64,000 bases of DNA from Pseudanabaena yagii GIHE-NHR1 (GTDB lineage Bacteria; Cyanobacteriota; Cyanobacteriia; Pseudanabaenales; Pseudanabaenaceae), in the NCBI RefSeq assembly GCF_012863495.1, contig NZ_JAAVJL010000001.1:1178001-1242000 (forward strand), given 5' to 3'. The notes beneath the pieces are model-generated. The model saw nothing but the letters and a program-made list of their open reading frames with translations, was not told where the DNA came from and ran no database searches. Position 1 is the stretch's first letter. Each line of letters begins with the position of its first letter. The position numbers and the translations under genes were made by a program. Shown here one piece after another: positions 64 to 50,460 of the stretch.

Positions 64-161
64 TTGAAAGGAAATTTGTAATTGTTCCATTAACTCAGTT
101 AGTGAAATGTTCCGCAATTGAGATAAATGGATAAGATGTGGAAGGCGATCACTTTGCCAGC

Positions 162-203
162 GGATTATTCGATAACTACCATGGATTATTCGATAACTAC
201 CAT
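162..203. repeat. perfect 21-bp tandem duplication at the hrcA 3' end
   Basis: The 21-mer beginning GGATTATTCGATAAC occurs twice back to back (162-182 and 183-203). The second copy contains the hrcA stop codon and its last tryptophan codon, so the duplication copied the gene end into the 3' flank without changing the protein. Confidence 0.9.
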
Positions 204-1261
204 TTACTGATTGCATCGGTGAGATGCAAAGCTGCTGCCTGTACTGAAGCGATCGCTCTGGTATAGCCTAAACGAGTAGGACCTAAAACTCCGACTGTGC
301 CAACGGGCTTATCATCACAGAGATAGGTACTAGAAATGAAAGTACAGTTTTGAATTGGCTCGATAGAAATTTCTGAACCGATGGAAATACTGACGGCTCT
401 GGTCGCAGATCGGGCTTGATCGACAATTAACGCCATTAACGAAGCGCGATCAGCTTCAAGAAGCTGCACAATATTCTGAACCTGTTGCAAATTAGAAAAT
501 TCGGGCTGACGTAATAGTTCCGTTAAGCCACTAATAAACATTTGCCCTAAAGCCGTGCGATCGCATAGTTTCATCAACTGCTGCAAGGACTGCTGTAATA
601 ACACCGCATATTGCTGAAACTGTCGATCTAGATCATCCCATTGCAGCGCACTGCCAAGTTCTGTCCAGCTTTTATCGCGTAAATGTTCATTTAAAAAATT
701 ATTGAGAATATTTAATTCACCTTCTAAAACATCAGGCTGAGTTTCGCTAGGCAAATCCATCGTTACAGAGGCAGTGTGGTAAGTATCACTAACCGCGATC
801 GCCATAATTTTGCGTTGATCGACCATGACTAATTGCAAATGCCTAATTCGCATAGTTTGCATATTCGGAGCCGTAATCACGGCGATACAGCCACTTAAAG
901 TCGCTAAAATTTGGGCAACATCACGCAGTACCCCATCGAGGCTGGACTTACCAAGGCGATCGCTTTTGCTTGCCATAAACTGATGGGTGCTATAGGTCAG
1001 CTCGCTGGCAGGATCGATTAGTTCATCGACATACACACGATAGCCAGAGTCTGAAGGCACACGTCCTGCTGAAGTATGGGGCTGATATAGTAAACCACTG
1101 CGATCTAATGTATGCATCACATTACGGATCGTCGCCGGGCTAATGTCAAAGTCATACTCTGACACTAAAGCCTTTGACCCAACAGGTTCCGCCGTTTGGA
1201 TATAGTGATCGATGGTTGCCCAAAGGACTTTTTGTTCACGATGGGTAAGTTGAGTTTTCAT
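197..1261 (-). CDS. hrcA: heat-inducible transcription repressor HrcA
   Basis: HrcA represses class I heat-shock operons (groESL, dnaK) by binding CIRCE elements; GroEL keeps it active. The N-terminal ~90 residues form the winged helix (LTHREQ start, then AEPVGSKALV and SPATIRNVMHTL, then PHTSAGRVPSD), all typical of the family. The rest is the HrcA effector/dimer domain, ending with the conserved IGSEISIEPIQNCTFIS and GVLGPTRLGYTRAI stretches. I start at the ATG at 1261 because homologues begin just before LTHRE; an in-frame ATG at 1288 would add nine residues. Length (354 residues) is normal. I saw no CIRCE copy (TTAGCACTC-N9-GAGTGCTAA) upstream or elsewhere in the window, so its targets lie outside. 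Confidence 0.95.
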   Translation of the reverse strand: MKTQLTHREQKVLWATIDHYIQTAEPVGSKALVSEYDFDISPATIRNVMHTLDRSGLLYQPHTSAGRVPSDSGYRVYVDELIDPASELTYSTHQFMASKSDRLGKSSLDGVLRDVAQILATLSGCIAVITAPNMQTMRIRHLQLVMVDQRKIMAIAVSDTYHTASVTMDLPSETQPDVLEGELNILNNFLNEHLRDKSWTELGSALQWDDLDRQFQQYAVLLQQSLQQLMKLCDRTALGQMFISGLTELLRQPEFSNLQQVQNIVQLLEADRASLMALIVDQARSATRAVSISIGSEISIEPIQNCTFISSTYLCDDKPVGTVGVLGPTRLGYTRAIASVQAAALHLTDAISKW

Positions 1262-1719
1262 AGGCTCTGACGATGTAATAATGTTCAAAAAGTACTAAAA
1301 GGTAATAAATAAAGGTTTTTTGATAAAAATCGAAGATAAATTGCCAAAATGAATTGCAAATTAAACAGAATAAAAATAAGTATTAAACAAGCATTAAATA
1401 AGTATTAAATTTTTATTGTTAAATTTAACTCCTATAAGTTAAGAGTTTAACTATTTCTATACCTAGATTCTAAAGAAATCCAGTATCAAGTTGTATATAC
1501 GTTGATATTTTTGGAGATTAGCTAGGCGCAGAACAGCTCAAAATCCACTAAAATTGTGACTTGGTTTCGCTACAATAGCCAAATGTCTCTTGAAGAAATA
1601 GACCAAACATTTAATACTGTAGTTTCTCCGATCATCACAGTCCTTACTGTAGTGGCTTAGACATACCTCAGCTTCACCTATATATTCACCATTGAGTTTG
1701 GTAAGTAACTAACATCTTC
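1262..1719. other. AT-rich intergenic region between divergent hrcA and the phosphatase gene
   Basis: About 460 bp carrying the divergent promoters. It holds A/T runs with repeated ATTAAATAAG-like words (1380-1410), a fragment resembling the left end of the family-B element (TTAGCTAGGCGCA near 1518), and a 25-codon open frame at 1583-1660 encoding a short peptide with a hydrophobic C-terminus (ending ITVLTVVA). A TACAAT box lies only 6 bases before that ATG. I cannot support this micro-ORF as a real gene; it is listed so it can be checked. Confidence 0.4.
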
Positions 1720-3627
1720 ATGGAAAATCAAGAGCAAACTACGGCAGTTGAGCAGCAATATCTTTGGGCAGTCGGACTAGATACCGAGTCCTTTCCGCCT
1801 GCATCGTTACTGGGCGATCGCTATCGTGTCCTATCCTCACAAATTGTTGTTGATACCGATGCCTTCACACTACCTGAGCTACCCCTTGAATTTCAGACTT
1901 ATGTAGTGTCTTATCTCAAGCTATCACGATTGAGCCTGCACCTGCCCCGTCCCTATGGTTTGCTTTTATTAGGTGAGGAGCTAAATCTTTCAGAAATATT
2001 TTTATTAGAAAATGTCCCCATCGATCGCCAAGGCAATCTTTGTCCGACCTTAGCTGAGAGTTGGGGACAAGCCTCCGCTTTACGCCAAATTAATTTACTC
2101 TGGCAAGTCCTCAACCTCTGGGAACCCCTCGCCGAACAAAATATGACGCGCACCTTGATCGAACCTAAATTGGTGCGGGTCGATGGCATGTGGGTGCGCC
2201 TGTTGGAATTACAAGCAGATGTATCGGCAGTGCATATCTCTCAATTAGGGGACATTTGGGTACAGTGGCTGGATCTGGCTAAGCCTGAAATTGCCGAACC
2301 GATCGCTGAATTTTTCTACAGTTTGGCTCGTGGTGAATACGATGTAAACAGTGCGATCGCCTATCTCGATAAGTTGACCTTAAAGGTGATGCAGGATCAG
2401 ACCTTCACCGTGCGCGTAGCCAGTGCCACGGATGTAGGACAACAGCGCGATCATAATGAGGATGCTTGCTATCCTGACACTAAGCGTCAAAAACGCAGCG
2501 AACAGGCTGAGAGTTTACGCGATCGTCTGGCGATCGTCTGTGATGGGCTTGGTGGTCATGATGGTGGTGAAGTCGCAAGTTCGCTAGCGATCAAAACCCT
2601 CGAACAACAACTCAAAACCCTCCTTAATCAAGCTGAGAATGATCCTGACTTCTCAGCGCAGGGATTTATTGCCCAGTTAGAGATGGTGGCTCGTGTTGTC
2701 AACAATCAAATTGTGGCAATTAACGACCAACAGCAACGCCATGCCCAGCAACGGATGGGAACCACTCTGGTTATGGCAGTAATTCCCCGTCCCAATGGAC
2801 AGCCCAGCAATGAGGTCTATGTAGTGCATGTTGGTGACAGCCGCCTCTATTGCATTAGCAAAGATAATTTGCGCCAAGTTACCCTCGATGATGATGTGGC
2901 AACTCGCGAGACTACCTTGGGCTATAACTTCTATGCCTATTCATCCCAACGCATTGATGGTGGCGCGTTGATTCAAGCCTTGGGAACTAGAGGCTCCGAT
3001 ATGTTAGTACCAAGGGTACAAAGATTCTTTATCGACGAAGATTGTCTGCTACTACTTTGTTCCGATGGTTTGAGTGACTTTGAGCGCGTTGAGCAGATCC
3101 ATGACAAATATTTGCTCCCAGTTTTAACTGAAGACAAACCCCTCAATCTCAGTTGCCAAAATCTCATTGATCAAGCCAATGAATTGAATGGGCATGACAA
3201 TATTACGGTCGCCCTGATGCGTTGTCGGTTTGCGCCTCCCGATCCTAATGAGGATAACGTAAATGAAGATCATCAGGTGACTTCTTCCGAGGGTTCTGAA
3301 GATGATGTAGATACTGAAGATATTTTGCCCAACCCCAATCATGTCAACGAAGAGGCAGGTGCTTTAGCAACCACAACTACTGATGCTGATAGCTCATCTA
3401 GCGAACCCACAGATGTCCCCGATAATTTGAGTGCCAGCGATCTGGAATCGGCAAAAACTGAACTAGCAGTGCCTAGACAGACTAACAAAGCCTTCATGAT
3501 TATTTTGATCTTAGTTGCCCTCTTGTTAGGGAGTGGCTTAGCGGCTTTTCAGTTTCCACAGGTAAAAGATTGGATTCGTCAGCATGTACCTGCGAGCTTC
3601 AAAAAGTTTGTGCCACCAAATTCCTAA
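1720..3627 (+). CDS. membrane-anchored PP2C-family Ser/Thr protein phosphatase
   Basis: A Mg/Mn-dependent phosphoserine/threonine phosphatase. The PP2C domain spans about residues 230-505 and shows the metal-binding signatures in order: DHNEDA, CDGLGGHDGGEVAS, GTTLV, HVGDSRLY, LLCSDGLSD and GHDNITVAL. The first ~200 residues are a poorly conserved region that begins LLGDRYRVLS and resembles a degenerate kinase lobe, as in other cyanobacterial PP2C proteins. An acidic, Ser/Thr-rich linker (about 510-585) leads to one C-terminal transmembrane helix (MIILILVALLLGSGLAAF), so the catalytic part should face the cytoplasm. The following gene begins 13 bases after its stop, which suggests co-transcription. 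Substrate unknown. Confidence 0.9.
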   Translation: MENQEQTTAVEQQYLWAVGLDTESFPPASLLGDRYRVLSSQIVVDTDAFTLPELPLEFQTYVVSYLKLSRLSLHLPRPYGLLLLGEELNLSEIFLLENVPIDRQGNLCPTLAESWGQASALRQINLLWQVLNLWEPLAEQNMTRTLIEPKLVRVDGMWVRLLELQADVSAVHISQLGDIWVQWLDLAKPEIAEPIAEFFYSLARGEYDVNSAIAYLDKLTLKVMQDQTFTVRVASATDVGQQRDHNEDACYPDTKRQKRSEQAESLRDRLAIVCDGLGGHDGGEVASSLAIKTLEQQLKTLLNQAENDPDFSAQGFIAQLEMVARVVNNQIVAINDQQQRHAQQRMGTTLVMAVIPRPNGQPSNEVYVVHVGDSRLYCISKDNLRQVTLDDDVATRETTLGYNFYAYSSQRIDGGALIQALGTRGSDMLVPRVQRFFIDEDCLLLLCSDGLSDFERVEQIHDKYLLPVLTEDKPLNLSCQNLIDQANELNGHDNITVALMRCRFAPPDPNEDNVNEDHQVTSSEGSEDDVDTEDILPNPNHVNEEAGALATTTTDADSSSSEPTDVPDNLSASDLESAKTELAVPRQTNKAFMIILILVALLLGSGLAAFQFPQVKDWIRQHVPASFKKFVPPNS

Positions 3628-3640
3628 GGCAAATTCCTCA

Positions 3641-5179
3641 ATGATCGATTGCCTTTCTTCACAAGCTATCGCTACTGCTGCTCAGATGCAAGCGATCGAA
3701 AATCTGATCTTCCAAGCAGGAATGCCCGTAGCCGCATTAATGGAAAAGGTCGCGCTGCGGATTACCCAAAGATTAACGGAACTCTATCCCGCTCGGAATT
3801 ATAGACGCATTGGCATCTTAGTTGGTTCTGGACATAATGGTGGTGATGCCTTAGTGGTGGCGCGAGAACTGCATCACCAAGGGCGACAGGTGCGAATCTA
3901 TACACCATTTGCCAAATCTAAACCCTTAACGCGAGTACATGGATGCTATGCCAAAAGTTTAGGGATTCCCTTTGTTGATCTAGAGGCACTACAGGATTGC
4001 GATTTGATTGTTGACGGCATCTTTGGATTTGGATTAGAACGGGATGTTACTGGCGATGTCGCGATCGCTATACACACCATCAACAATTGGCAAATTCCTA
4101 TCCTCAGCATTGATTTACCATCAGGGCTTCACACCGATCACGGTAAGGTCATGGGTATTGCGATTCGGGCAACCCATACTTTTTGTTTGGGACTATGGAA
4201 GCGGGGTTTACTGACAGAATCGGCTACGCCCTATGTTGGTAAGCTGGAAAGAATTGGGTTTGACATTCCTGAGCAATTTATACATCAAGTATTAGGGGAT
4301 CAACATCCTCTCTGGCGGATTGAGCCACAGATACTCCGCGATCGCCTACCAATTGTGCGTAATCCCATCGCTCACAAATATGAAATTGGCCATTTATTGC
4401 TAGTTGTCGGATCTCAACAATATGGTGGTGCGGCTCTTCTCGCGGCGATGGGCGCAAAGGCAACAGGTGTGGGAATGTTATCGATCGCTGTTCCCCATTC
4501 TCTAAAACCGCTAATTCTCGTCCAAGTTCCTGATGCCCTTGTCATTGGCTGCCCAGAAACTGCGGGAGCGATCGCCGAATTACCGAATCTTGATTTTGCG
4601 AAATATCAAGCGATCGCCTGTGGTTGTGGGCTGTCCCTTGAAGCTATGCCAGTTGTCAAGCAAATCATCGATAGCGATCGCCCACTAATTCTTGATGCCG
4701 ATGGTCTAAATGCTTTAGCCTCTTTAGACAGAGCCACTGGGCTTGACCAATTACAGAATAGAAAAAATTCTGTGATTCTTACTCCCCATTGGGGCGAGTT
4801 CTGTCGGCTATTTCCTGACTTACGCACAGTTGAACGCATAGAGGCTTTACAGAGAGCCGTAACCCTCACGCAATCCACAATTTTACTGAAGGGATCAAAG
4901 ACGGCGATCGCTTTTCCCCACAACACCTCATCACAGGTATGGATCAATCCCGAAAGCACTCCTGCCCTAGCTAGAGGCGGTAGTGGTGATGTCTTAGCAG
5001 GTATGCTTGGGGGCTTATTAGCTCAAGGCATGGCAGCTAATGATGTTGCGATCGCGGGAACATTGTGGCATTCCCAAGCCGCGATATGGCTCGCTAAACA
5101 GCGCACGGAAATGGGGGTTGACCCTGTAACCCTTGCCCAGAGTCTATTGCCTTTTTTAGGTCAAGAATTGCCTGTTTAG
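3641..5179 (+). CDS. nnrDE: bifunctional NAD(P)H-hydrate epimerase / ADP-dependent NAD(P)H-hydrate dehydratase
   Basis: Repairs damaged, hydrated NADH and NADPH. The N-terminal YjeF_N epimerase half (about 1-215) has GSGHNGGDALVVAREL and VDGIFGFGL. The C-terminal ribokinase-like dehydratase half (about 225-510) has the ATP/ADP-site motifs DADGLNAL, TPHWGEF and ARGGSGDVLAGMLGG. The fused arrangement is the usual bacterial one, as in E. coli YjeF. I start at the ATG at 3641, after the stop of the phosphatase gene at 3627; an in-frame ATG at 3584 would overlap that gene and add 19 unconserved residues. Length is 512 residues. Confidence 0.93.
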   Translation: MIDCLSSQAIATAAQMQAIENLIFQAGMPVAALMEKVALRITQRLTELYPARNYRRIGILVGSGHNGGDALVVARELHHQGRQVRIYTPFAKSKPLTRVHGCYAKSLGIPFVDLEALQDCDLIVDGIFGFGLERDVTGDVAIAIHTINNWQIPILSIDLPSGLHTDHGKVMGIAIRATHTFCLGLWKRGLLTESATPYVGKLERIGFDIPEQFIHQVLGDQHPLWRIEPQILRDRLPIVRNPIAHKYEIGHLLLVVGSQQYGGAALLAAMGAKATGVGMLSIAVPHSLKPLILVQVPDALVIGCPETAGAIAELPNLDFAKYQAIACGCGLSLEAMPVVKQIIDSDRPLILDADGLNALASLDRATGLDQLQNRKNSVILTPHWGEFCRLFPDLRTVERIEALQRAVTLTQSTILLKGSKTAIAFPHNTSSQVWINPESTPALARGGSGDVLAGMLGGLLAQGMAANDVAIAGTLWHSQAAIWLAKQRTEMGVDPVTLAQSLLPFLGQELPV

Positions 5180-5230
5180 TTATGCTTATAAGGCTCTTGC
5201 GGATAAAAAATGTCCCACCAAAGTTATCTA

Positions 5231-5274
5231 GCTTCGACTTCGCTCAGCTAACGTTGGCTGAGCGAAGTCGAAGC
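5231..5274. repeat. 18-bp-arm palindrome, GCTTCGACTTCGCTCAGC family
   Basis: Left arm GCTTCGACTTCGCTCAGC and its exact complement flank TAACGTTG. Related copies lie at 20160-20205, inside cobA-hemD, and at 50362-50412. There is no T-tract, so it is a dispersed palindromic repeat rather than a simple terminator, although it lies downstream of nnrDE. Confidence 0.85.
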
Positions 5275-5290
5275 CACAGGTACTTTAATT

Positions 5291-5393
5291 AATAGCAAGT
5301 TCCTAACAATCCTAAAATAGTTTGTGGAATCGCACCCCTTCGGGGCGCGATTCCACAAAACCCAAAATCTACCAAGGATTTGGAACTGCTATA
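5291..5393. mobile_element. family-A inverted-repeat mini-element (copy 1)
   Basis: About 100 bp bounded by ATAGCAAGTTCCTAA and, inverted, TTTGGAACTGCTAT. A central hairpin has the stem TGTGGAATCGC around CCCCTTCGGGG. Three other copies (23891, 36054, 46780) share the TATAGCAATCCTAAA-type ends and the TTTGTGGAAGCGC-type centre. No coding capacity. Proposed as a MITE-like or REP-like element; no transposase is visible. Confidence 0.75.
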
Positions 5394-5649
5394 TCTACTT
5401 AGCAATATCACAAATCTTATAGCTCTATTAAGCAAATTACGTCAGTTTGTGAGTAATTAGTGTCTTTTGAGAGCTACGATGAAATCAAGATTGTGATATT
5501 TGGGAATAATGTATTTACACTGTTGAGAATACTGTTAAGCAATTAAAATAATCTCTAAAATTTCTCTGGATCTCCTTAATTAATCTGTTTAGAAAATTGG
5601 TATTTAATCTTTCTATAGAGATGGTGGCTGTTTGAGCAGTTGGCACATA

Positions 5650-5739
5650 GGTAGTTAGATGTAATTAAATATAAAATCACCAAAACTGTGGTGTAAGCGC
5701 CACATAAACCACAGGATGTTGTTCTGATTTTCAATGATT
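5650..5739. mobile_element. family-B inverted-repeat mini-element (copy 1)
   Basis: Shares with the other family-B copies the order: GTAGTTAGATGTAATTAAATA, AAAACTGTGG, a variable core, CCACAG, then TTCTGATTTTCAATGATT. The arms can fold into one hairpin. This copy is degenerate. Confidence 0.6.
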
Positions 5740-5779
5740 TTAAGCTTATCTAATCAATATCTTTTTTCTAAATATCTGG

Positions 5780-5875
5780 ATGCAATTAAATATACAAGCT
5801 AAAAACCTGTAGACCATGCTGTGCTTGCCATAAATGTTTTGGCTCTGATTTTTAATTATGCCCAATTACTTAGTA
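5780..5875. mobile_element. family-B inverted-repeat mini-element (copy 2)
   Basis: Begins TGCAATTAAATATACAAGCT, with AAAAACCTGT in the left arm. It ends with GGCTCTGATTTTTAATTATG followed by CCCAATTACTTAGTA. The right end is close to that of the copy at 43298-43402. Non-coding. Confidence 0.65.
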
Positions 5876-6151
5876 TCAATATGGATTGGTATACGGGTTG
5901 TCTTGACAAAAAACACTATTAGACAAACTAAATACCTTGAATTTAGGCATACATTGTTGCCTAATCTTATATTTTTGATAGAAAGAAATCGATGCGATCG
6001 CAAGAAGATTTGAGATAAATTTGTCAGCCAATTTACTTACACTAAAATGTGTCAATTTATCGACAATATAAGATAATCTTAAAACTGTGGAAGATGACTG
6101 TACTTGCCTGTCTTAACAATAGGCAAACCTTGAAGTAGTAATTGCAAGTTT

Positions 6152-10102: not shown

Positions 10103-10711
10103 ATGGCTGAGCAAAAAAAAGCTGTTTTAATGGTGCACATTGACCAATATCAAGGGCAACTGTGGCAAGCAGCTTTGGAAACCCAGCAATTGGAGGTAAC
10201 TTGGGAAAGTCCTAACTGTGATCTTGTGCAATATTTAGAGCAGTGCGATCGCCAAAATCTTCCCAATCTTCTACTGATGGATATAGCGCTCAAAAGCCCT
10301 AACTCAGAAACTTTGCAATCATCATCAGTATGTCAATGGGTAAAAAAACAACAGTCTGATACAAAAGTTGTCTTATTTAACCCTCGTCAAGAAAGAATCA
10401 AAGATATCGAACATAGCTGGGCATTAAGAAGAGGAGCAGTTGATGTCTTGCCACGCCTCTCAAGAGATAATTTAATTTCTGAAATCGCAAGAGTTACTGC
10501 CTTAATTGGCTGTTCATTAATTGCCCACCCCCTAGAAGCAATAGCCATTAGTATGGATGGAGTCTCCACAGTGGCACAAGAGAAGACAGTAGCGGTGACA
10601 CCCGTTGAAGCAATTAATGTAAACTCAAAGTCAGATATCACCAATAAGCCGAAAGTTGATACTAAGTCTGATACAGCAATAATGTATCGCGGCGTTAGAA
10701 TTAGAAGGTAG
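10103..10711 (+). CDS. degenerate response-regulator receiver protein
   Basis: 202 residues. The first ~130 look like a CheY fold, with LLLMDIALKSP supplying an aspartate (Asp60) at the phospho-acceptor position. The N-terminal acidic pair is reduced (only Asp14 in VHIDQ), and the late lysine is replaced by arginine (VLPRLSRDNL), so phosphotransfer is doubtful. A low-complexity Thr/Val/Lys linker follows, and the end is the basic YRGVRIRR, a tail I have seen on other cyanobacterial proteins. It lies 13 bases before the hydrolase gene, and the pair is probably co-transcribed. Function unknown. Confidence 0.6.
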   Translation: MAEQKKAVLMVHIDQYQGQLWQAALETQQLEVTWESPNCDLVQYLEQCDRQNLPNLLLMDIALKSPNSETLQSSSVCQWVKKQQSDTKVVLFNPRQERIKDIEHSWALRRGAVDVLPRLSRDNLISEIARVTALIGCSLIAHPLEAIAISMDGVSTVAQEKTVAVTPVEAINVNSKSDITNKPKVDTKSDTAIMYRGVRIRR

Positions 10712-10724
10712 TAGCCCTTAAATC

Positions 10725-11657
10725 ATGTCTAACAGTTCACCGCAGCAAGAGTGCTCTCAAGCTCAAAACTTCATATTATTTGCACAGCATGGGTGGGCGG
10801 ATACATATCACGACATTAACTACTTAGCTCAAGCATTAGTAGATCAATCATCAAGATCAAATATTCCTATCTATACGCCTGATCTTGGTTGGATTAATAC
10901 TTGGCTCACCATAACTCCACTAATCGATAAAGTTGAACGGATTGCAATAGAAGCGATCGCCCAATATCCAGATCTCCCCCTACGCATTGTTGGTCACTCG
11001 ATGGGTGGATTAATCTGGCTCGAAGTTTTAAATCGCCATCAGGAATGGTGGCACAAAGTCCATAGCCTAGTCCTAGTTGCCTCACCTGTTGGTGGCTCTG
11101 ATTTGGGTAGATTATTCGATCCATTGCGTTTATTTCCTCTAATTGCCCGTGACCTAGGCACAAATCGTCGCCCCATTGCTGAAGCGATCGCATCCCAAAT
11201 CCCCACATTATCCATCGTTGGCAATGTAGGTAATCACACAGATGGCACAGTACCTATAGGCTGTTCGCAGTTTAATTATGCAAGCCTTGTCTATCTAGAT
11301 GGGTTACGTCATCCCACACTTAAAAATCATCCCAGAGTTGCGGAAGCCATCCGCCAATTTTGGAATCGACCAGTAATTGCACCCCTACCAACAGATAGTG
11401 CTTCGCAATTAATAACCAAACTAAGAGCGATCGACCTCACCGAAACCAATAACCAAAGTTTTCAATATGCTCAAGTAATCAAAACCTATCCAGATGACAC
11501 AAAACTTTGGGTATGGAAAAACTATCTGCAAGTTACTCATATTTTTGTCAGTGACAGTATTGCAGAAGACCAAGGTTCAATCGATCGATGTATCTACACA
11601 GCTTTCACAGGTTGGAAAGATCAAGATAAATTGGTAATTGCTCTCAAAAATTTATAG
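10725..11657 (+). CDS. alpha/beta hydrolase, lipase/PGAP1-like
   Basis: 310 residues with an N-terminal hydrolase core. FAQHGWADT is the oxyanion-hole region, and the nucleophile elbow GHSMGG has Ser92. The GTVPIGCSQF and DGLRHPTLKNHPRV regions carry the likely acid and histidine. No signal peptide or membrane segment, so cytoplasmic. The last ~90 residues (after APLPTDSASQL) form an additional small domain I do not recognise. Substrate unknown. A strong terminator follows. Confidence 0.82.
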   Translation: MSNSSPQQECSQAQNFILFAQHGWADTYHDINYLAQALVDQSSRSNIPIYTPDLGWINTWLTITPLIDKVERIAIEAIAQYPDLPLRIVGHSMGGLIWLEVLNRHQEWWHKVHSLVLVASPVGGSDLGRLFDPLRLFPLIARDLGTNRRPIAEAIASQIPTLSIVGNVGNHTDGTVPIGCSQFNYASLVYLDGLRHPTLKNHPRVAEAIRQFWNRPVIAPLPTDSASQLITKLRAIDLTETNNQSFQYAQVIKTYPDDTKLWVWKNYLQVTHIFVSDSIAEDQGSIDRCIYTAFTGWKDQDKLVIALKNL

Positions 11658-11668
11658 ATTTATCAGCA

Positions 11669-11698
11669 AAAAAGCTCACACTTAGTGTGAGCTTTTTT
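11669..11698 (+). terminator. intrinsic terminator after the hydrolase gene
   Basis: AAAGCTCACAC, a TTA loop, then GTGTGAGC with a run of six T. Because the left arm is preceded by A-rich DNA it can also act for the leftward PEP-CTERM-like gene ending at 11731. Confidence 0.88.
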
Positions 11699-11730
11699 GT
11701 TGAGTTGAAGGTATGGCAATTTATCGGAAA

Positions 11731-12669
11731 CTAGGAATTAATATCTTTCTTGTTTCTCAGGGAGTGAATAGCTTTATTACCTAAATACAATGCACCCAGA
11801 ATACCGATACCTAAATTAGGTGAAAAATCGAAAGGTATTGGAGCGGTAGAAAACTGTGCATTATCAATAAAGTTTCCATAGGAAGTAGTATTAGTAGCAT
11901 TCTGAGCAATAGTCGAACCGTCAGACGTTGTAGTATTAAGCCCGTTGGTTGATGTTAATGCTGAATATGAAAATCTAACAGTCTTAGCAGAAGTACTAGT
12001 ATCTACAAAAAATGCAGAAAAAGCAGATGACTGATAATTAAACCACCCATTGTTAGCTCCTGGATTTGCAGGGTCTAACAACTTAGTTAGAAAATCTCTC
12101 TGGAAAAGAGTTGTTCCCCCACTAGTTATTGCACCATTGGCATCTGTTGTCGCACCAGTCATATCCGTAATCGTGAGTTGAATGATATTAATAGCAACAT
12201 TGGTATTACCTTGATTTTCTCTTGCTCGATGCCAAAAATCGAAGTAAAGCTGAGTCTGTCCGCCAGTCACTGGAGCTACTATCTCCTGATATAGAGAAGC
12301 TGCAGTAATTGCATTAATTTCAGCAAACTGATTGCCATTGGCAGTATTAGCTACAGTTACTGGCACTAGTGCTCCACCACTAAACCCAGATTGCCATAGC
12401 TCTATACCACCGTCTGCTGCAGTTGTTCTCCATCCCGTTATATTGTTTTCGGTAGTAACTACAAAATTGCTACCTGTTCTCGTTACAGGAGATGATTCAT
12501 ATTGAGAATCACCGTTTATAACAGGCAACGTTGTAACACTGTCAGCCTCAAAGCTGGGGTTAACTAGTGAAATAGCTTGAGCAGAACCGAAAGACAGAGT
12601 ATTACTTGCAATTAGAACTAATGCACCTAGTAGACTTGCATTTTTGACGGATGTGGTAAATGTCTTCAT
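11731..12669 (-). CDS. exported PEP-CTERM-like protein with PFDFSP sorting tail
   Basis: 312 residues. A signal peptide occupies about 1-32 (SLLGALVLIASNTLSFGSAQA, cleavage likely at AQA). The body is Thr/Asn/Ser-rich and probably beta-structured; it starts LVNPSFEAD and resembles the carbohydrate-binding-like ectodomains of PEP-CTERM proteins (HWRARENQG-like segment at about 145). The C-terminus has PIPFDFSPNLGIGILG, a hydrophobic helix and a basic end (RNKKD). That layout matches the cyanobacterial PEP-CTERM variant with a PFEFSP motif, implying sorting by a cyanoexosortase. The exosortase is not in this window. Low HIP1 density. Confidence 0.7.
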   Translation of the reverse strand: MKTFTTSVKNASLLGALVLIASNTLSFGSAQAISLVNPSFEADSVTTLPVINGDSQYESSPVTRTGSNFVVTTENNITGWRTTAADGGIELWQSGFSGGALVPVTVANTANGNQFAEINAITAASLYQEIVAPVTGGQTQLYFDFWHRARENQGNTNVAINIIQLTITDMTGATTDANGAITSGGTTLFQRDFLTKLLDPANPGANNGWFNYQSSAFSAFFVDTSTSAKTVRFSYSALTSTNGLNTTTSDGSTIAQNATNTTSYGNFIDNAQFSTAPIPFDFSPNLGIGILGALYLGNKAIHSLRNKKDINS

Positions 12670-19380: not shown

Positions 19381-21021
19381 ATGAAAGGTAAAGTTTTTAT
19401 TGTTGGTGCAGGGATTGGGGGCGTAGAGTTTTTGACAGTTCGCGCTAGGGATTTGATATGTACTGCTGAAGTGATTATTAGTGATGCGCTAGTCGATCGC
19501 ACTTTATTAGACCTTGCGCCGCCACAATGTAATTGCATCATTGCGGGTAAACGGGGTGGACAGGAAAGTATTAAGCAAGCAGAAATCAATCAAATGCTGG
19601 TGGAATATTGCTTGCAGGGTAAGCAAGTAGTGCGGCTCAAGAGTGGCGATCCTTGGATATTTGGTCGATCGCTACCTGAGATATCAGCATTGCAAGCCGC
19701 TAATTGTGATTGGGAAGTAGTCGCAGGGATTTCTAGTGCGATCGCGGCTCCCATGTTGGCTGGGATACCACTTACAGAAGTGGAGGCGAGTTCTTGTTTT
19801 GCGGTGATGACGGGACATGATTTGGAGCGGCTGCCTTGGGATGCGATCGCTCAAATTCCGACATTGGTAATTTTGATGGGGACAAATAATCTGGCGGGAT
19901 TGTTGGCAAAATTGCAAGAGGGAAAATCTGGGGATACAAAAATTGCGATCGTGCGTTGGTGTGGGAGACCTGAGCAGCAGGTATGGACAGGTACTTTGAC
20001 AGATATCCAGTCAAAATTACCTGAAGGATCTCTATCGCCATCGGTGATTATTATTGGGGAAGTCGTAAAGTTTCATGAGCAATTGTCCCGTCCTGACAGG
20101 AAATTATTAGAAAATTGTGTTCTCCAAGACTTGGCATCAAGTCCTATAAAAAGTACGTTGGCTTCGACATCGCTTAGCCAACGTTGGCTGAGCGATGTCG
20201 AAGCCAGTGTTGATCTAGAAAAGGAAAAATTACCATTGCAGGGCAAACGGATTTTAGTGACAAGGGCAGCGACACAGGCTAGCCAATTTACAGATTTACT
20301 CACCAATCAAGGTTTTGAAGTTATTGAGATGCCAACTTTAGCGATCGTGCCTCCAAGCAGTTGGGAAATGTTGGATCAAGCGATCGCCGATCTTGCAAAT
20401 TATGATTGGTTGATTTTGACCTCAGCAAATGCTGTTGAGAGTTTTTTCGGACGCTTGCAACAGTCTGGCAAAGATAGCCGTGCCTTGCATTCCCTGAAAG
20501 TTGCCGTAGTGGGGCGCAAGACCGCCGAAGTGTTGGCAAATTATGGAATTACGCCCGATTTAGTACCAGTAGATTTTATTGCCGATTCCTTGATTGATGC
20601 CTTTTTGACAGGCAATCATGTTTTAACTGACAAAAAGTTGTTATTCCCGCGAGTGCAATCGGGTGGGCGTGAGGTTTTAGTGGAGCAGTTGCAACAACAT
20701 GGGGCAATTATCGAGTCGATTCCTGCCTATGAGTCGGGCTGTCCTGAAGCGATCGATCCTGTCGCCTTAGCAGCTATTCAAAGCCAAAAACTTGATGTAA
20801 TTACCTTTGCTAGCTCCAAGACTGTGAGGTATTTTTGTCAATTACTGGATCGTGTAACAGCTAGAGAAACTTGGCAGACTTGGATTGCCTCAGCAAAAAT
20901 TGCTTCTATTGGTCCTCAGACCTCTAAAACCTGTGATGAGTTATTGGGGCGAGTTGATTGTGAGGCTGTGGAATATACCCTAGACGGTTTAGCCGAAGCG
21001 ATCGCCAAAATCCTTAATTAA
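19381..21021 (+). CDS. cobA-hemD: fused uroporphyrinogen-III C-methyltransferase / uroporphyrinogen-III synthase
   Basis: The N-terminal half (about 1-240) is SUMT/CobA: KVFIVGAGIGGVEFLTVRA, GKRGGQESI, VVRLKSGDPWIFGR and SSAIAAPMLAGIPLT. It makes precorrin-2 for siroheme and cobalamin. The C-terminal half (about 282-545) is HemD: GKRILVTRAATQASQF, LTSANAVESFF, AVVGRKTAEVLANYG, ITFASSKTVRYF and IASIGPQTSKTC. The fusion is known in bacteria. The start is the ATG at 19381, where SUMT proteins begin; an upstream ATG at 19342 would add 13 residues. A 46-bp palindrome encodes residues ~260-275 of the linker in frame. Confidence 0.92.
   Translation: MKGKVFIVGAGIGGVEFLTVRARDLICTAEVIISDALVDRTLLDLAPPQCNCIIAGKRGGQESIKQAEINQMLVEYCLQGKQVVRLKSGDPWIFGRSLPEISALQAANCDWEVVAGISSAIAAPMLAGIPLTEVEASSCFAVMTGHDLERLPWDAIAQIPTLVILMGTNNLAGLLAKLQEGKSGDTKIAIVRWCGRPEQQVWTGTLTDIQSKLPEGSLSPSVIIIGEVVKFHEQLSRPDRKLLENCVLQDLASSPIKSTLASTSLSQRWLSDVEASVDLEKEKLPLQGKRILVTRAATQASQFTDLLTNQGFEVIEMPTLAIVPPSSWEMLDQAIADLANYDWLILTSANAVESFFGRLQQSGKDSRALHSLKVAVVGRKTAEVLANYGITPDLVPVDFIADSLIDAFLTGNHVLTDKKLLFPRVQSGGREVLVEQLQQHGAIIESIPAYESGCPEAIDPVALAAIQSQKLDVITFASSKTVRYFCQLLDRVTARETWQTWIASAKIASIGPQTSKTCDELLGRVDCEAVEYTLDGLAEAIAKILN
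20160..20205. repeat. palindrome inserted in frame in the cobA-hemD linker
   Basis: GGCTTCGACATCGCTTAGCC, AACGTT and the matching right arm form a 20-bp-arm palindrome with one mismatch. It belongs to the same family as 5231-5274. It is read in frame as ASTSLSQRWLSDVEA without introducing a stop, between the two enzyme domains. Confidence 0.9.
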
Positions 21022-21178
21022 AGGTTAGGTACAAAAGCACTTGACCTCAGTTTTTAAACATTACAAAAACAAGCAATTTCTGACATTTACTAGCTTTTTT
21101 CCATACAATAAATACATAGGCTCTTTTAAGAACGTAATTTGAATCTTGCTTTAGTGCTTCACCATAAGATAAGAAATC

Positions 21179-21217
21179 GATTTTTGATGACTTAGCGAAG
21201 CCAAGTCATCAAAAATC
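21179..21217. terminator. hairpin downstream of cobA-hemD
   Basis: GATTTTTGATGACTT and its exact complement enclose AGCGAAGCC. It lies in the 320-bp gap between cobA-hemD and the peptidoglycan-binding gene. No other feature is seen in that gap. The apex is of the GCGAAGC type common to hairpins across this window. Confidence 0.7.
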
Positions 21218-21344
21218 TGGTTCTCTATTAAATTGTGGAACTCTAAACTGGGAGAAATTACAAAAACTAGCGAAATCATGTTTTTACGAACACAAAAGAG
21301 CCAATTGATTAGCCTAGTGGCGTTTTTTATTGAGGCTGAATTGT

Positions 21345-50318: not shown

Positions 50319-50361
50319 AGAACGTCAGTTCGAGTTATAGATAATTCAAATAAGAACTACA

Positions 50362-50412
50362 GCTTCGACTTTGCTCAGCTAGCTTACACCGATGGCTGAG
50401 CGGAGTCGAAGC
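50362..50412. repeat. GCTTCGACTTCGCTCAGC-family palindrome (degenerate loop)
   Basis: GCTTCGACTTTGCTCAGC (left) and GCTGAGCGGAGTCGAAGC (right) with a longer loop, TAGCTTACACCGATG. Third copy of the family seen at 5231 and 20160. Confidence 0.85.
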
Positions 50413-50460
50413 CCCTCTGCAAATTATTTAAAACAACTATAAGTTGGCAAATTTTAAAAG

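Follow-up and report, generated by a model that had tools for sequence, protein, structure and literature searches.

The window, the whole 64,000-nt stretch of Pseudanabaena yagii GIHE-NHR1 DNA that was analysed, contains a cobA-hemD fusion gene encoding uroporphyrinogen-III C-methyltransferase joined to uroporphyrinogen-III synthase (Table 1). The listed ORF begins at an earlier TTG; residues are numbered here from the ATG at 19381. By Pfam, TP_methylase spans residues 4 to 209 and HEM4 residues 302 to 538, the latter being the single HEM4 match in the whole genome of this organism (G000; other G numbers denote compared genomes). Between the two domains lies a 46-nt palindrome, GGCTTCGACATCGCTTAGCC-AACGTT-GGCTGAGCGATGTCGAAGCC. 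The initial annotation had located it in the linker and described it as translated in frame, and both its position and its reading proved exact. The near-perfect arm pairing claimed for it was also found, with Watson–Crick pairs at 19 of 20 positions and T/G as the exception. As single-stranded DNA the palindrome folds with −24.6 kcal/mol (z −10.1), a value equalled by none of 200 shuffles. The AlphaFold2 model of CobA-HemD is weak (mean pLDDT of 61.5 and pTM of 0.37, from 15 sequences); in this weak model residues 216 to 283 form the longest low-confidence stretch, with pLDDT below 50, and residues 236 to 289 are predicted to be without helix or strand.

Table 1. Features of the cobA-hemD locus and further copies of the repeat, in window coordinates
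Feature	Position	Strand	Remarks
cobA-hemD fusion gene (uroporphyrinogen-III C-methyltransferase + uroporphyrinogen-III synthase)	19381..21021	+	ORF; Pfam domains
Stretch preceding palindrome	20125..20159 (approximate limits)	+	35 nt; together with palindrome, the 81 nt by which the linker exceeds the commonest length (72 nt)
In-frame 46-nt palindrome	20160..20205	.	Codes ASTSLSQRWLSDVEA, residues 261-275; insert unseen in 26/31 aligned homologues
Left arm of palindrome	20160..20179	-	18/20 identical to family arm
Loop AACGTT of palindrome	20180..20185	.	Loop common to many family A copies
Right arm of palindrome	20186..20205	+	19/20 identical to family arm
Family A copy	5230..5275	+	Within element of about 118 bp
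Family B copy	50361..50413	+	Different outer flanks, longer loop

CobA-HemD linkers with and without the palindrome

Thirty-three CobA-HemD fusions were taken and 31 were aligned, G044 and G036 being dropped without a recovered ORF. The insert is present in five of the 31, namely G000, G021, G023, G025 and G011. Linker lengths were measured among 25 fusions, a set from which G025 and G010 are absent. The linker is 153 nt long in G000, G021 and G023, and that of G025 has the same length as that of G023. In non-carriers of the genus, 19 linkers were measured: nine of 72 nt and five of 66 nt (14 of 19 thus having one of these two lengths), two of 84 nt, and one each of 93, 48 and 39 nt. The carrier excess over 72 nt is 81 nt, or 27 codons, a multiple of three. 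This comparison supports the in-frame insertion into the linker that the initial annotation had proposed. The full peptide encoded without palindromic DNA, which would speak against such an insertion, was sought in other CobA-HemD fusions and occurred in none of the 31 aligned. The peptide goes together with palindromic DNA in G000, G021 and G011, and in G023 and G025 one arm is flipped and the peptide has diverged to AERIRCQRWLSKVEA. A near case is the 39-nt linker of G006, in which EQLASTASIDLEK is encoded, a short stretch that resembles LAST and has no palindrome; the best arm match in this linker is 8 of 10, equalled by 12 of 100 shuffles, and remnant and chance are alike possible. A stretch resembling the arm (TGAGCAAAGT against TGAGCGAAGT) reaches 9 of 10 in four of the 19 non-carrier linkers, a score equalled by 0 to 4 of 100 shuffles; one of these four linkers has it elsewhere, and the remaining 15 fall short of 9 of 10. 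This gives a weak hint that an arm-like stretch in linkers without a copy might have guided insertion. The alignment shows that a member of a dispersed family sits in frame in cobA-hemD and is absent from most aligned relatives. The repeat thus occurs outside genes and also in frame within a conserved gene whose orthologues lack it, which is what characterizes an in-frame protein-coding palindromic repeat.

The G011 linker contains two perfect arms around the loop ACCATCATCAAAGCT and is read as ASTSLSHHHQSWLSEVEA. Its left flank is unlike that of the G000 lineage, and G011 lies far from the other carriers in the gene tree. Judged from these sequences, two separate linker gains, one in the G000 lineage and one in G011, would be the simpler reading. 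The right junction is similar in both (VEA-S-V), as would be expected if a single ancient insertion in the genus had been lost in most lineages and retained in these two. Non-carrier G002 nests among the carriers in both trees (FastTree support of 0.872; IQ-TREE split support of 58), so that loss may occur. We nevertheless consider one ancient insertion improbable, since it requires many losses that restored short linkers and since G011 has a loop and a left flank unlike those of the G000 lineage. Within that lineage, monophyly of the four carriers was not rejected (AU p of 0.263); together with the nesting of G002, this would fit one gain as well as a gain with loss or exchange in G002.

The carriers also differ in whether the hairpin is kept. 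G021 has a perfect 46-nt palindrome, from which G000 differs at positions 10, 16 and 37. Positions 10 and 37 pair with each other, and the T/A of G021 is A/T in G000, a compensating change. The codon difference pointed out in the initial annotation, CTT AGC versus CTG AGC, is present and is synonymous (CTC to CTT) against the perfect G021 copy. In G023, 17 of the 20 left-arm positions agree with the right-arm orientation and 10 of 20 with the expected one, and G025 is identical in sequence at this flipped arm. Despite the flip the 15 codons of G023 stay open: frame and length are kept and the hairpin is lost. The predicted RNA fold has −45.7 kcal/mol in G000, −47.7 kcal/mol in G021 and −19.9 kcal/mol in G023, for which 6 of 200 shuffles are as stable. 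The great stability of the first two folds, the fact that two of the three differences between G000 and G021 form a compensating pair, and the perfect arms of the separate G011 copy would all suit an mRNA hairpin that is functional, for example in ribosome pausing between the domains or in expression tuning, and is kept by selection. However, the loss of the hairpin from G023 and G025 with frame and length intact argues against a needed hairpin, and 26 of the 31 aligned homologues do without the insert altogether; we therefore hold a functional hairpin to be quite improbable. Replication errors templated by hairpins, or template switching, would suit both the flipped arm of G023 and G025 and the paired change in G000.

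Dispersal of the repeat and the longer elements around it

The arm GGCTGAGCGNNGTCGAAGC, searched with at most one mismatch, has 200 + 197 matches in the genome of P. yagii itself, and the reversed-pattern control has 0 + 0. Within a contiguous 400 kb of this genome, 34 arms (at most four mismatches) group into 16 clusters, compared with 0, 0, 0, 1 and 0 matches for five shuffled arms on the same DNA. Among the 16, only the cluster in cobA-hemD lies within an ORF of at least 110 aa, a distribution that fits purging of most coding insertions. The 15 clusters not so spanned would also be in keeping with a palindrome that once stood in the gap between cobA and hemD, then distinct genes, and turned into linker at their fusion. 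Yet repeat-free fusions exist in the genus and in other families, so that the fusion is older than the insertion. We rejected this origin as contradicted by the repeat-free fusions among the aligned homologues, and regard it as having next to no likelihood.

Across 26 genomes of the genus the arm sum at the same threshold ranges from 0 to 397, with matches in 21 of the 26. Sums are 342 in G004, 344 in G011, 93 in G025, 89 in G023, 13 in G021, 4 in G002 and 0 in G013. Of 386 genomes taken as a sample of the phylum, 12 contain the exact 20-mer pattern; G000 has 201 occurrences, and the 11 others have between 1 and 17 apiece. Against 72,556 plasmid records, from which those of the source genome were possibly excluded, the perfect palindrome gave one match, at 81% identity, in Pseudanabaena galeata.

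Many intergenic copies are the centres of longer, MITE-like repeats. In 125 clusters from sampled DNA, a biased sample because their choice was partly guided by arm matches, the same core is found within several recurrent outer contexts (families A to D). A consensus built from 40 copies of family A measures about 118 bp, with recognisable ends that form imperfect terminal inverted repeats, TAAGGCTCTTGC...GCAAGTCCCTAA; in family B copies ACTAC adjoins the arm. The initial annotation had reported intergenic palindromes of the same family at 5231 and 50362. Both are indeed present (Table 1), with the correction that each is the centre of a longer repeat.

Synteny between G000 and the G021 stretch compared with it is largely scrambled. 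Of the 125 clusters, 14 had a flank match over 150 nt between these genomes, seven of these were aligned, and one (L057) had readable junctions. At L057, G021 reads agatagttagaac where G000 has a family A element between TTAG and TAG. The junctions of this full/empty pair carry a 3-nt TAG repeat, which is possibly due to chance, and a second insertion or deletion of about 100 nt directly adjoins them. The cobA-hemD copy was compared with the outer ends of families A to D in three carriers (24 comparisons). The best match was the left end of family B, with a raw p of 0.001 in G021, 0.01 in G000 and 0.129 in G023, and the 35 nt before the palindrome showed no consistent match to the outer ends of these four families in the three carriers. 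The cobA-hemD copy thus appears to be a core in which outer flanks of families A to D are not convincingly present.

Two further observations concern repeat architecture. Some loci have arrays of three or four arms rather than one pair (L080, 2017-2108; L106, 1471-1558; L060, 1433-1520), suggestive of tandem duplication of arms. There are also many long inverted repeats with 1 to 3 nt between their arms, at 21172-21224 of the window and elsewhere, which are unrelated to this palindrome family.

In-frame arms in other genes

Beyond cobA-hemD, the coding copies described here are at least those found among the matches listed. A type I restriction locus (L103, G000:C1:1925300-1939200) has many in-frame arms. 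Its hsdR (1553-6097) is a 1515-aa open frame with the Pfam domains ResIII, EcoEI_R_C and HSDR_N, and its hsdM (10486-12186) is a 567-aa open frame with N6_Mtase and HsdM_N. In-frame arms lie between domains of type I restriction genes in four members of the genus, and one diverged arm does so in a fifth. The HsdR open frames measure 1515 aa in G000, 1316 in G011, 1298 in G022, 1136 in G010 and 896 in G004, where the contig end cuts the frame. Counted from a shared Met, HsdR has 1501 residues in G000 and 1135 in G010, 366 more in G000. Most of the difference in length comes from stretches derived from arms, located ahead of HSDR_N and in the region separating the helicase domain from the C-terminal one. 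In G010, which has no arm genome-wide at up to one mismatch, HsdR retains a single diverged arm. Searching the 26 genus genomes with a 31-aa stretch of HsdM gave 16 matches in five of them, each match within an open frame of at least 463 aa.

Other coding copies include a 1386-aa methyltransferase-like ORF of G014 (L210, G014:C67:101500-108000; 67-4224), with two places at which these arms stand in frame; we take this ORF to resemble PglX. At L207 (G011:C17:28500-32500; 1990-2035) a 576-aa ORF, presumably a PilB/GspE-like ATPase, ends in a C-terminal tail that comes from the palindrome.

Reading frames were counted in nine ORFs from six genomes: HsdR of G000, G011, G022, G010 and G004, HsdM of G000 and G004, a GIY-YIG ORF of G000 that probably includes some leader, and the 1386-aa ORF of G014. 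Their 57 arm matches (at most three mismatches) are read as LSEVEG-like in 28 cases, ASTSLS-like in 25 and AERSRS-like in four, and the other three readings, one of which holds a stop, are not used. Our impression is that arms in genes stand mostly in one reading frame; many of the matches duplicate one another, and a few overlap. A further copy, which covers the 3′ end of cobA-hemD in G011 (L006, G011:C22:152428-157011; 3083-3137), is read in another frame than those in the nine ORFs. It codes the last residues, LRLRSATIKIAG, and a TGA in its right arm is the stop codon.

Relation to known repeats and interpretation

A search of open-licence papers yielded no description of this repeat. According to excerpts of two papers, RPEs are dispersed palindromes that also occur in frame inside protein genes and are considered tolerated in at least one case (PMC2229807, PMC3733652); the same texts report further small repeats that likewise stand in frame within genes. 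The cobA-hemD palindrome is like these Rickettsia elements, as excerpted, in being dispersed and in frame within a protein gene. The excerpted accounts give RPEs a length of 105 to 146 bp (PMC2229807) and place CGTC at one end of R. conorii repeats, RPE-4/6 (PMC3733652). In contrast, the palindrome studied here is 46 nt long (81 nt in total excess), which sets it apart from RPEs as described there, and the cobA-hemD copy has neither CGTC nor GACG within 15 nt of its ends. Thus, the likeness to Rickettsia RPEs drawn in the initial annotation holds as an analogy rather than as evidence of membership.

GTAG/CGTC REPs are, in the excerpted text, short palindromes that are mainly intergenic, with a minority within ORFs, where flexible linkers or loops are suggested and the copies may be neutral (PMC3733652). 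The cobA-hemD copy differs in that neither GTAG nor CTAC lies within 15 nt of its ends; against this difference stands the ACTAC next to the arm in family B copies. Nor could a transposase be tied to the core: among sampled copies no Y1 transposase gene was found beside it, which may be a second difference. Y1_Tnp has three matches in the P. yagii genome, and the nearest core in the DNA sampled around them is ∼2.8 kb or more away. Nesting of the core in families A to D is like that of Anabaena variabilis GTAG-15 dimers, which the excerpt describes as nested in longer palindromes (PMC3733652).

Family A would resemble MITEs in its length, its imperfect terminal inverted repeats and perhaps the TAG repeat at the one full/empty junction. 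The cobA-hemD copy, a core whose outer ends are not convincing, seems to differ from them. The paper 'Very small mobile repeated elements in cyanobacterial genomes' reportedly deals with small mobile repeats, some of them nested in other repeats, and in these respects the small dispersed repeats of cyanobacteria would be like ours. We would file the cobA-hemD copy under the general kind of in-frame palindromes and assign it neither to RPEs nor to GTAG/CGTC REPs.

The best reading of these comparisons is that of a REP-like selfish repeat in a disordered linker, one that would behave like Rickettsia RPEs. Specifically, we propose, with a probability of about 0.83, that a high-copy, REP-like repeat of the genus was gained in frame in the cobA-hemD linker, once in the G000 lineage and separately in G011, and is tolerated in the disordered linker. 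There would have been one gain in the lineage of G000, G021, G023 and G025, within the 27-codon addition, and an independent gain in the G011 linker. Two properties would let the palindrome persist: the linker, being disordered, can vary in length and sequence, and two of the palindrome's three frames are without a stop. In-frame insertions in disordered linkers would survive through doing little harm, and neutral tolerance would account for them better than benefit.

A bolder proposal, which we put forward tentatively and think rather unlikely, is that the repeat is suited to coding DNA, with two open frames, of which an Ala/Ser/Glu-rich one dominates in genes, and a third that can give a stop. 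Such a repeat might be a recurrent generator of linker length and of new protein ends, as in three CobA-HemD events in two lineages (two linkers and one C-terminus) and in HsdR, lengthened from about 1135 to 1501 residues, where it possibly forms a coding module of its own.

The repeat offers a free-living cyanobacterial example of protein-coding palindromes, with many sister genomes of very different copy number. Because carriers, non-carriers and a carrier lineage without the hairpin are all at hand, whether such inserts are tolerated, useful or removable becomes directly testable. The restriction genes are indicated as sites at which in-frame palindromes accumulate.
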